From contig JBBDWO010000019.1 of the NCBI GenBank assembly GCA_040902765.1, forward strand, positions 1 through 64,000: a stretch of DNA of 64,000 nucleotides. Reading direction: 5' to 3'. Made by a program: the position numbers and the translations under genes. The notes under the pieces are model-generated. The model saw nothing but the letters and a program-made list of their open reading frames with translations, made no database searches and was not told the origin of the DNA. This document shows, piece by piece, positions 42,685-45,504 of this stretch (positions are counted from its first letter, which is position 1; each line of letters begins with the position of its first letter). Source of the stretch: Acidimicrobiia bacterium. Its GTDB lineage: Bacteria; Actinomycetota; Acidimicrobiia; Spongiisociales; UBA11373.

Positions 42685-42779
42685 TACCAGATATCACATA
42701 CCGGTACCAGCCGGCGACGAAGGGGTGAGCCGCGAACCTCAGCCAGGTGATTGCTGATGACCTGACATACTGCGATCGC

Positions 42780-43541
42780 ATGCCAGCCGATCTTCAACAC
42801 CCCACCGTCGTGTCCATCGCCGGCCACGTGGGCAGCGGAAAGAGCGCCACCGCCCGAATCGTCGCCGAGACCCTCGGATGGAGCCACCTCTCCACCGGCG
42901 AGATGTTCCGACAGATCGCCGGCCGGCTCGGCATGACCGTCCTGGAGTTGAATCGCCACGCCGAGACCGACGGCTCGATCGACGAGGAGATCGACAGCTA
43001 CCTGCGGGGCCTCGCCGGCGTGGCCAGTGATGTGGTCATCGACTCACGCATGGCCTGGCACTTCGTTCCCGAGTCGCTCAAGGTGTTCCTCCTGGTGGAT
43101 CCCATCGAGGGGGCCCGGCGTGTCCTGCGGGCTGGCCGAGCCGATGAGACGTATGCCACCCTCGAGGACGCCGCCGCGGCGAACGTCGCCCGCATGGCCG
43201 CCGAGGCCGAGCGATATCACGATCTGTACGGGGTCCGGCGCGACGATTGGCGCAACTACGACCTGGTCATCGACACCACCGACGTCGCCAAGGAGGCCGT
43301 GACCACCCGCATCGTCGCTGCCGTCATCGGACCGCCCTCCGAGCGTTCCGGGGTATGGCTCGCCACCCGCCGCCTCCGTCGCAATGGTGCGATCAAGACC
43401 GGCGACACCGTTGAGGTCGACATCCGCGACGGCTTGGGCTCGGTACGCCGCGGCTGGGACCTCGTGGAGCATGCCCGGGCGGCGGCCGAACCCCTCATCC
43501 GCTGCCGGCTCGTCGGATACGAGGGATCACCCGTCGACTGA
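42780..43541 (+). CDS. Cytidylate kinase-like P-loop kinase
   Basis: A 253-residue protein with a Walker A motif SIAGHVGSGKSATARIVAETLG at the start and STGEMFR after it, as in the archaeal-type CMP kinase family. The DSRMAWHFVP and RYHDLYGVRRDDWRNYDLVIDT segments fit that family too. About 60 C-terminal residues (from VWLATRRLRR) form an extra part I do not recognise. The ATG at 42780 directly precedes the P-loop domain. It may supply CMP kinase or a related activity. The last 15 bases overlap mihF. Confidence 0.75.
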   Translation: MPADLQHPTVVSIAGHVGSGKSATARIVAETLGWSHLSTGEMFRQIAGRLGMTVLELNRHAETDGSIDEEIDSYLRGLAGVASDVVIDSRMAWHFVPESLKVFLLVDPIEGARRVLRAGRADETYATLEDAAAANVARMAAEAERYHDLYGVRRDDWRNYDLVIDTTDVAKEAVTTRIVAAVIGPPSERSGVWLATRRLRRNGAIKTGDTVEVDIRDGLGSVRRGWDLVEHARAAAEPLIRCRLVGYEGSPVD

Positions 43542-43844
43542 GCGTGCCTCGGCCACCAGGCGACGGCGCTGGTCGACGTCGAGGGTGCCGATCCGCTCGA
43601 ATTCGGAGATCCCGAGCCGCGCCAGCAGCCGAACCGTCCTGATCTTACCTAGCGCAGGCACCGCGGTGAGCACACTCTTGACCTTCAGGGCAGCGATCAG
43701 ATCATCGTCCGTGTCGAGCAGCACCTCGGCGATGGTGATCTCTCCGGCCTGAAGAGACCGGCGGATCTCAGTGCGGCAGGCCCGCAACGCGGTGACGCGG
43801 GCGAGCACCGATGGGCGAACGTCGTCGACGGGACTCTCGGACAC
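43527..43844 (-). CDS. mihF: Actinobacterial integration host factor
   Basis: A 105-residue DNA-bending nucleoid protein, unrelated to E. coli IHF. The helix-two-turn-helix region is VLTAVPALGKIRTVRLLARLGISEFERIGTLDVDQRRRLV, and the N-terminal arm is basic. The start is GTG at 43844. It lies downstream of the pyrF-like gene, as in other actinobacteria, but a nested palindrome separates them. Confidence 0.9.
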   Translation of the reverse strand: MSESPVDDVRPSVLARVTALRACRTEIRRSLQAGEITIAEVLLDTDDDLIAALKVKSVLTAVPALGKIRTVRLLARLGISEFERIGTLDVDQRRRLVAEARSVDG

Positions 43845-43857
43845 GCTGCGACTCTAC

Positions 43858-43948
43858 GGGGGTGAGCGAATAGGTCGCTGGCTTCATCAGGTTTCGGCTT
43901 GCAGCAAGCCGAAACCTGATCCCGGGGCGAGCCTATTCGCTCACCCCC
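43858..43948. repeat. Nested inverted repeat between pyrF-like gene and mihF
   Basis: The outer arms (GGGGGTGAGCGAATAGG at 43858-43874 and its exact complement at 43932-43948) enclose inner arms at 43886-43901 and 43905-43920 (ATCAGGTTTCGGCTTG and complement). The right outer arm is also the end of the pyrF-like coding sequence. It could act as a double terminator, or be a decayed mobile element. Its sequence differs from the heptamer arrays. Confidence 0.8.
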
Positions 43949-44568
43949 GACGACGCCGTGGCGATGCCGCCGACCAGGGCCGATGGGGCGACGACCAAGT
44001 CGGCGGCGCGTCGTCGGGCCTCGTCGATCCCGGCGAGCGACGAGATACCGATGGCGACACGTTCCAGTTCGGGAGCCGCCTGAGCAACCACGCCGAGGTC
44101 GCCGAGGGTGACGAGCACGCCCGACGCACCCGCGGCCAACGCCCGCTTGGCGAGCCGGGACACCACGGCGCCCCGCGAACGGCCGAGTCCCAGCACTGCA
44201 GCCCTCGCGTCGTTGACCCCGGGATCCAACGATGCCGCCACGACCGTCGCGCCCGATGCCGCTGCCGCCGCGACTGCTGCCTCCATCGCGCCCTCCTCCA
44301 CGACGGCGTGGACCGCGATCCGCCGTGCTCCGTACTCGGCGAGGCGCCCTGCGGCGCGTCCGACGACGTCGGGGGTGCCGTGGATGGCGAACAGCGTCGT
44401 CACCTCCCCGATCCTCGCCAGCGCTCCCACCACTCCGGGACCCGGACCGAGGAGGAGGTCGGCGCCAACAGCAAAACCATCCACCGCCCCGCTGATCCGG
44501 TCCGCCTCGCGCACCGCGTCTTCGGCGATCCGTGCCGTCAGCAAAGCAACCAGGCGACCGTTACCCAC
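43933..44568 (-). CDS. PyrF-like protein lacking the OMP decarboxylase active site
   Basis: A 211-residue TIM-barrel-like protein in the place normally held by pyrF (upstream of mihF). Weak similarity to orotidine-5'-phosphate decarboxylase is seen in ISGAVDGFAVGADLLL and GASGVLVTLGD. The catalytic DxKxxDIPNT motif is replaced by LFAIHGTPDVV, so the Asp-Lys-Asp network is gone. It is Ala/Gly/Val-rich but keeps an open frame, so it is not an obvious pseudogene. It may have a new role or be decaying; another enzyme would have to make UMP. Confidence 0.55.
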   Translation of the reverse strand: MGNGRLVALLTARIAEDAVREADRISGAVDGFAVGADLLLGPGPGVVGALARIGEVTTLFAIHGTPDVVGRAAGRLAEYGARRIAVHAVVEEGAMEAAVAAAAASGATVVAASLDPGVNDARAAVLGLGRSRGAVVSRLAKRALAAGASGVLVTLGDLGVVAQAAPELERVAIGISSLAGIDEARRRAADLVVAPSALVGGIATASSGVSE

Positions 44569-44572
44569 GGTG

Positions 44573-44947
44573 TCACTCCCGATCGCGCTCGGCGGCGAGC
44601 TTGGACAGGACGCCGTTGACGAAGGCGCCGCTACGAGCGGTCGAGTACGTCTTGACCAGGCGCACCGCCTCGGCGATCACGACGGGCACCGGGACCTCGG
44701 GGCGACTGCGCAACTCCCAGAGGGCGATGCGCAGGACGTTGCGATCGACCGGCGGCATCCGTTCCACCCGCCACCCCGTCGACGCTGCGCCAATCGCTTC
44801 ATCGAGCGACTCACGAGACCCCCACACACCGCTCACGATCGCCGCAGAGCGCTTCGACAGCCCCTCCAGGGTCGGTATCGCCTCCCGGCGTTGGTCGGCC
44901 TCGTAGAGGGCGTGAAGCGCCGCTTCCCGGTGGTCCTGGGGGGTCAC
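44573..44947 (-). CDS. nusB: Transcription antitermination factor NusB
   Basis: A 124-residue all-helical factor that binds boxA RNA with S10 (NusE) and supports rRNA antitermination. The pattern REAALHALYEADQR, then PPVDRNVLRIALWELRSRPEVPVPVVIAEAVRLVKTYS, and ARSGAFVNGVLSKL is characteristic. Its ATG overlaps the efp stop by four bases. The pairing efp-nusB is common. Confidence 0.95.
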   Translation of the reverse strand: MTPQDHREAALHALYEADQRREAIPTLEGLSKRSAAIVSGVWGSRESLDEAIGAASTGWRVERMPPVDRNVLRIALWELRSRPEVPVPVVIAEAVRLVKTYSTARSGAFVNGVLSKLAAERDRE

Positions 44948-45504
44948 GACACCCGGGTCATGTATTCGCCACTTCGGGTGTCCACCTTGATGCGATCACC
45001 CTGCTCGACGAACAGCGGCACGTTGACCACGAGGCCGGTCTCGACGGTGGCCGGTTTGGTCCCGGCCGACGACCGATCGCCCTTGACACCCGGTTCGGCG
45101 TGGGTCACTTCGAGTTCGACCGAGGCGGGGAGCTCCAGACCGATCGCCCTCCCGTCGTACATGGCGATACTGGCGCCGTCACCTTCCTTGAGGAAGGACG
45201 CCGCCGACCCGACCTCTTCGTCCCGCAGCACCACCTGGGCATAGGTCTCGCCGTCCATGAAGTGAAACCCCGTGTCGTCGCGGTACAGGAACTGATGGGG
45301 ACGACGGTCCACGATCGCCTGGTTGACCGCCTCGTCGGCCCGGAAGGTGCGGTCGACCACGGCACCCGACTGGAGATTCTTCAGCTTCATGCGTACGAAT
45401 GCCTTGCCCTTGCCCGGTTTGACGTGCTGGTACTCGACGATCTGGAACAGGCCGTCGTCGAGGTCCAGCGTCATGCCCGGCCGAACGTCGTTGGTGGAGA
45501 TCAT
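44944..45504 (-). CDS. efp: Translation elongation factor P
   Basis: A 186-residue factor that relieves ribosome stalling at proline runs. The KOW-like first domain ends in VKPGKGKAFVRMKLKNLQSG, with the modifiable loop residue Lys in PGKGKA. Domains two and three follow with MDGETYAQVVL and GLVVNVPLFVEQGDRIKVDTRSGEYMTRVS. A 7-bp repeat array lies only 10-34 bases upstream of its ATG, so it is likely within the leader. Confidence 0.96.
   Translation of the reverse strand: MISTNDVRPGMTLDLDDGLFQIVEYQHVKPGKGKAFVRMKLKNLQSGAVVDRTFRADEAVNQAIVDRRPHQFLYRDDTGFHFMDGETYAQVVLRDEEVGSAASFLKEGDGASIAMYDGRAIGLELPASVELEVTHAEPGVKGDRSSAGTKPATVETGLVVNVPLFVEQGDRIKVDTRSGEYMTRVS

Follow-up and report, generated by a model that had tools for sequence, protein, structure and literature searches.

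The window, by which we mean the whole stretch of 64,000 nucleotides that was analysed, carries on its minus strand the genes efp, nusB, pyrF* and mihF in that order, where pyrF* denotes a gene for an apparently dead group I OMP decarboxylase. The features on which the analysis draws are as follows.

44944..45504, minus strand: efp, elongation factor P.
44573..44947, minus strand: nusB.
43933..44568, minus strand: pyrF*, the putatively catalytically dead group I OMP decarboxylase gene, 211 aa, GTG start, TAG stop.
44365..44397, minus strand: the former DxKxxDIP active-site stretch of pyrF*, now TLFAIHGTPDV (residues 58-68).
44074..44175, minus strand: codons 132-165 of pyrF*, spanning helix alpha-5, strand 6 and helix alpha-6 and including the derived, invariant Arg132 and Asp157.
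43859..43947, no strand assigned: a dispersed palindromic element of 89 bp at the 3' end of pyrF*, which supplies its last four codons and stop.
43527..43844, minus strand: mihF, actinobacterial integration host factor.

A preliminary description of this DNA had placed a gene with an intact frame of 211 codons at the pyrF position before mihF, and both points were borne out: there are zero internal stops in 44568..43933 on the minus strand, the order nusB-pyrF*-mihF was confirmed, and pyrF precedes mihF across the order. The start of pyrF* follows the nusB stop after a gap of 4 bp, and the motif CGGGAG, read from the sequence where it overlaps the end of nusB a few nucleotides before the GTG, is a plausible ribosome-binding site. 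At the other end of the gene, the inserted 89-bp element provides the final four codons (GVSE) together with the TAG stop. It is near-palindromic with 16-bp terminal inverted repeats (GGGGTGAGCGAATAGG) and has at least 21 near-full copies in the genome at 88-97% identity, several of them lying between 5-bp duplications (CTTAG or CTGAG, for example) and others at contig ends. Beyond mihF, a CMP-kinase-like gene with a C-terminal extension (42747-43541, plus strand; TIGR02173, 7.5e-27, just under the cut-off) occupies the mihF/rpoZ interval where relatives have gmk, on the opposite strand, an arrangement common to genomes G003 and G008. No match to guanylate kinase (PF00625) passing the cut-off was found in the window's 97%-complete genome (G000; 1.99 Mb), and the CMP-kinase-like gene may encode a non-orthologous GMP kinase.

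By sequence and predicted fold, the pyrF* protein is a group I PyrF. It matches the Pfam OMPdecase family (PF00215) at 4.6e-7 with 30.4 bits, over the cut-off of 27, a match shared by 24 of 27 locus orthologues, and it scores far under the cut-offs of the NCBIfam PyrF models. An AlphaFold model built from the 27 locus orthologues has a mean pLDDT of 95.3 and the full (beta/alpha)8 barrel order, and its best matches among solved structures are OMP decarboxylases (TM 0.74-0.86, about 0.8), which speaks against the unrelated fold that the preliminary description had envisaged as an alternative. The OMP decarboxylase fold is predicted to be intact in degraded proteins of two independent lineages.

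An alignment to ten active orthologues shows the active site of the pyrF* protein to be substituted at each catalytic or ligand-contact position checked. The stretch LFAIHGTPDVV, earlier said to lack the catalytic Asp-Lys-Asp, is the exact aligned DxKxxDxP region, with the D-x-K-x-x-D of strand 3 replaced by L59, A61 and G64, and the residue matching G64 is Asp in 32/32 active sequences read. The retained pseudoenzyme that had been proposed on this basis is substituted more widely than was noted: the beta-1 Asp is T11, the beta-2 Lys is A33, the beta-5 Thr/Ser (TS) is P116 G117, the beta-7 TPGIR and DQRR loop is deleted, and the phosphate-binding Arg of beta-8 is S196. A displaced set of conserved polar residues at the barrel mouth, the other way out that had been foreseen, was sought in the alignment of degraded proteins and none was found; the only invariant polar residues in the nine degraded proteins of the window's family, f1, are R132, S137 and D157. 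Open frames with degraded sites are also present in 16 orthologues of related genomes, so the degradation of pyrF* reflects neither chance nor one bad assembly, and on the evidence of sequence and model pyrF* appears to be a true pseudoenzyme.

An organism with such a protein would need another PyrF for UMP synthesis, as had been anticipated, and one was found on contig C11 of G000, where pyrC, pyrB, pyrFE and pyrD2 stand in a row.

L103 4894-9297 (G000 contig C11): complete alternative pyrimidine operon pyrC-pyrB-pyrFE-pyrD2.

The pyrFE product is a PyrF-PyrE fusion of 456 aa, whose PyrF half belongs to group II (TIGR02127, 225 bits versus a cut-off of 110.6; motif DAKRGDI) and whose PyrE half scores 123 bits with TIGR00336, over the cut-off, while the pyrD of the operon is of the class 2, quinone-dependent dihydroorotate dehydrogenase type. 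Judged from its motifs, the fusion is intact and can supply UMP. The order pyrC-pyrB-pyrFE-pyrD2 is identical in f1 and in a species of genus g37 of another family, which suggests that the operon was transferred as a unit.

We surveyed 138 genomes of the window's order and found a group II PyrF in 15 of them, comprising seven from f1, two from genus g37 (family f2) and six from genus g35 (family f3); all 15 have a degraded resident PyrF next to mihF. Two further f1 genomes, G004 and G012, both incomplete, have a degraded PyrF, and the fusion was sought in them and not found; as the new-type pyrB of G012 runs off the contig end, its missing fusion is likely an assembly gap. A PyrF match exists in 117 of the remaining 121 genomes, scoring at least 119 bits in almost every case and split by or truncated at contig ends in a few, and the four with no match are all incomplete. 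For 32 of these 121 we read the active-site motif itself.

On a tree of the neighbouring genes coaBC and rpoZ the degraded state needs three origins, with the f1 cases forming one clade of eight sampled species. Origins were counted on this tree because the PyrF gene tree, which was rejected for the purpose, unites degraded sequences of f1 with those of f3, a grouping that probably reflects long branches. The two g37 genomes, G069 and G081, keep the D-K-D and have Asp for Ile after the second Asp, Gln for the beta-2 Lys and a broken beta-7 phosphate loop.

L080 2160-2861 and L081 2370-3071: early-stage degraded pyrF of G069 and G081.

PyrF is normal in four sister species that lack the fusion; the loss in g37 is young and probably at an early stage. 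A genome of another family, G386, was considered as a fourth case and rejected, as its resident PyrF is intact (VDLKLHDIP). Next to mihF this genome carries its intact group I PyrF (L134 5193-5840), with a group II-like PyrF elsewhere, and its two-PyrF state possibly resembles the starting state before displacement.

The degraded state thus occurs in at least three lineages, and the window's locus has lost the remainder of the ancestral pyr operon, neither of which was part of the preliminary description. Active genomes of the order have the arrangement nusB-pyrR-pyrB-pyrC-(carAB)-pyrD-pyrF-mihF-gmk-rpoZ-coaBC. In the degraded f1 and g37 genomes pyrF* is the sole gene between nusB and mihF, pyrR, pyrB, pyrC and pyrD having gone from the old locus in the window's lineage; G093 of g35 retains carA there besides its degraded pyrF. 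In two f1 genomes, G006 and G011, an active PyrF follows nusB directly and stands by itself at this spot, with pyrR, pyrB, pyrC and pyrD missing there, so loss of the other pyr genes from the locus is separable from loss of activity.

L036 3112-3807 and L038 12-704: active pyrF of G006 and G011.

The genomes examined from families f9, f27 and f51 of the same class have the mirror image of the arrangement in the window's order: a pyrR-pyrB-pyrC-carA-pyrD block is followed by mihF or gmk, resident pyrF is absent from this locus, and a group II PyrF lies elsewhere. Neither mihF nor a group II PyrF therefore requires a group I relic, and the retention is particular to the window's order. This bears on the proposal that the dead protein is a partner of the group II decarboxylase, either regulatory, by modulating it, or structural, as part of mixed complexes, which would be in keeping with the strict co-occurrence of degraded PyrF and group II PyrF in the order. 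Simple displacement predicts this co-occurrence equally, however, and the group I and group II proteins have very dissimilar sequences, g35 has its group II PyrF unfused, and other families run a group II PyrF with no group I relic, such that we consider a partnership of this kind improbable.

All 17 degraded pyrF frames are open, with a start and a stop. Selection on them was assessed from dN/dS in relatives, a check that the preliminary description had put forward; as pairwise omega is saturated in dS for f1 and for most active pairs, only the values for g35 and for G069/G081 are used numerically. Degraded g35 pairs at dS 0.2-0.56 have omega of 0.20-0.35 (2dlnL 14-47 versus omega = 1), and their shared degraded motif indicates that the loss predates the species split. 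In the same comparison omega is 0.05-0.09 for coaBC and 0.10-0.15 for gmk, so that the degraded pyrF stands at ~1.5-5x the level of these two genes of the same genomes, and the G069-G081 pair has an omega of 0.12-0.13 versus ~0.03 in active sisters. The f1 degraded pairs reject omega = 1, though with dS saturated, and the degraded gene has been kept across six f1 genera at synonymous saturation and 30-60% identity. These comparisons point to purifying selection that is relaxed but real, the case for f1 being indirect since dS is saturated there.

If pyrF* were a useless relic undergoing slow decay, its frame open by chance in a GC-rich, stop-poor genome, one would expect constraint to be relaxed relative to the neighbours, as it is, and could account for the shortened C-terminus, for the element insertion that rewrote the 3' end in the window, and for the resemblance of G069 and G081 to an early stage, with D-K-D present and the phosphate loop broken. 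Decay accords poorly with the intactness of every one of the 17 frames, with omega values significantly under 1 in pairs that split only after the loss, with persistence throughout the six f1 genera at such divergence, and with the deletion of pyrR, pyrB, pyrC and pyrD from the same place; we regard it as unlikely. The tight coupling of pyrF* to nusB and its unchanging position could also mean that the open reading frame is kept only to carry transcription or translation from nusB into mihF. A spacer would not conserve amino acids, yet omega is well below 1 in g35, and other families have pyrD and then mihF with no pyrF between them, which leaves this idea with hardly any credibility.

Relative to active f1 enzymes, conservation in the f1 degraded proteins is lower everywhere except in alpha-5 and alpha-6: it falls from 0.92 to 0.22 in beta-8 and from 0.82 to 0.39 in alpha-3, and goes from 0.55 to 0.57 in alpha-5 and from 0.64 to 0.63 in alpha-6. 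Two changes in this region are derived, Arg for Pro132 and Asp for Glu157, and all nine f1 degraded proteins share both without exception; conservation of R132 and D157 does not extend to the g35 lineage. Active enzymes vary at positions 159 and 163; the degraded proteins have Gly and Gln there in every g35 case and in nearly every f1 case. As the alpha-5/alpha-6 contrast comes only fifth among 204 circular shifts and was picked after looking at all elements, the pattern is a lead rather than proof.

Derived invariant polar residues could also be read as parts of a new enzyme. The OMPDC suprafamily, which includes KGPDC and HPS, is known to change reaction, and R132 and D157 lie at helix starts on the catalytic-loop side, as might be expected had the pyrF* protein acquired a different activity on the same barrel. 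The strand ends nevertheless carry no conserved polar set, phosphate-binding loops 7 and 8 are lost, strand 8 is the least conserved strand, and R132 and D157 are not conserved in g35; a new activity thus seems very improbable.

The explanation that we favour, with some reserve, is that pyrF* is a pseudoenzyme whose retention is due to a non-catalytic function, probably exercised by binding via helices 5-6. The resident PyrF of the order is a group I enzyme, and its gene stands last among the pyr genes of the nusB-pyrR-pyrB-pyrC-(carAB)-pyrD-pyrF-mihF block. In its place the window's lineage has a pyrC-pyrB-pyrFE-pyrD2 operon, whose group II PyrF-PyrE fusion can supply UMP. The genes pyrR, pyrB, pyrC and pyrD are gone from the old locus while pyrF has stayed, without its Asp-Lys-Asp and its substrate contacts; its product is still predicted to fold as a (beta/alpha)8 barrel, and the gene is under purifying selection. 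Under the model that we favour, the protein would no longer bind OMP and would instead act by contacting another macromolecule through the alpha-5/alpha-6 surface, and this second role, either already present in the active enzyme of the order or gained early, would have blocked deletion of the gene. The first candidate partners are PyrFE, NusB and mIHF. That an old second, non-catalytic function of PyrF in this order of Actinomycetota was alone what kept the gene, as three independent pseudoenzymes, after each operon takeover is a more tentative idea, which we hold to be possible but rather doubtful. Since pyrF is missing from the locus in f9, f27 and f51, the role of pyrF* would not be general in the class.

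OMP decarboxylase is the last enzyme of UMP synthesis and a textbook case of catalytic proficiency, normally considered to have a single function. The repeated replacement of PyrF with retention of the dead fold would constitute a natural experiment in which catalysis is set apart from whatever else the protein may do, and it predicts that a non-catalytic role should exist already in the active PyrF enzymes of the same order. An old second function, if true, would mean that an enzyme among the most proficient known also moonlights. The locus also holds a warning for annotation, as Pfam alone still labels the pyrF* protein an OMP decarboxylase.

We found no report of a retained dead OMP decarboxylase in the open-access literature searched, a body that leaves most subscription journals outside. 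Compared with known group I PyrF (PF00215; TIGR01740; B. subtilis 1dbt and E. coli 1eix), pyrF* shares the fold, approximate length, locus and barrel-wide homology, but differs in the wholesale substitution of the catalytic and ligand-contact residues checked and in its low NCBIfam scores. The C11 fusion, encoded separately from pyrF*, shares domain order and the DAKRGDI motif with the bifunctional PyrF-PyrE proteins (PRK05500; group II TIGR02127), although at 307 bits it scores under the PRK05500 cut-off of 656. Other members of the OMPDC suprafamily (KGPDC, HPS/HUMPS) belong to the same barrel family as pyrF*, which, unlike them, retains no catalytic Asp/Lys pattern and gives marginal matches only (HxlA, E 0.01). 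With the general kind of pseudoenzyme that persists once another enzyme has displaced the active form, pyrF* shares a dead site, a predicted live fold and what appears to be continuing selection.
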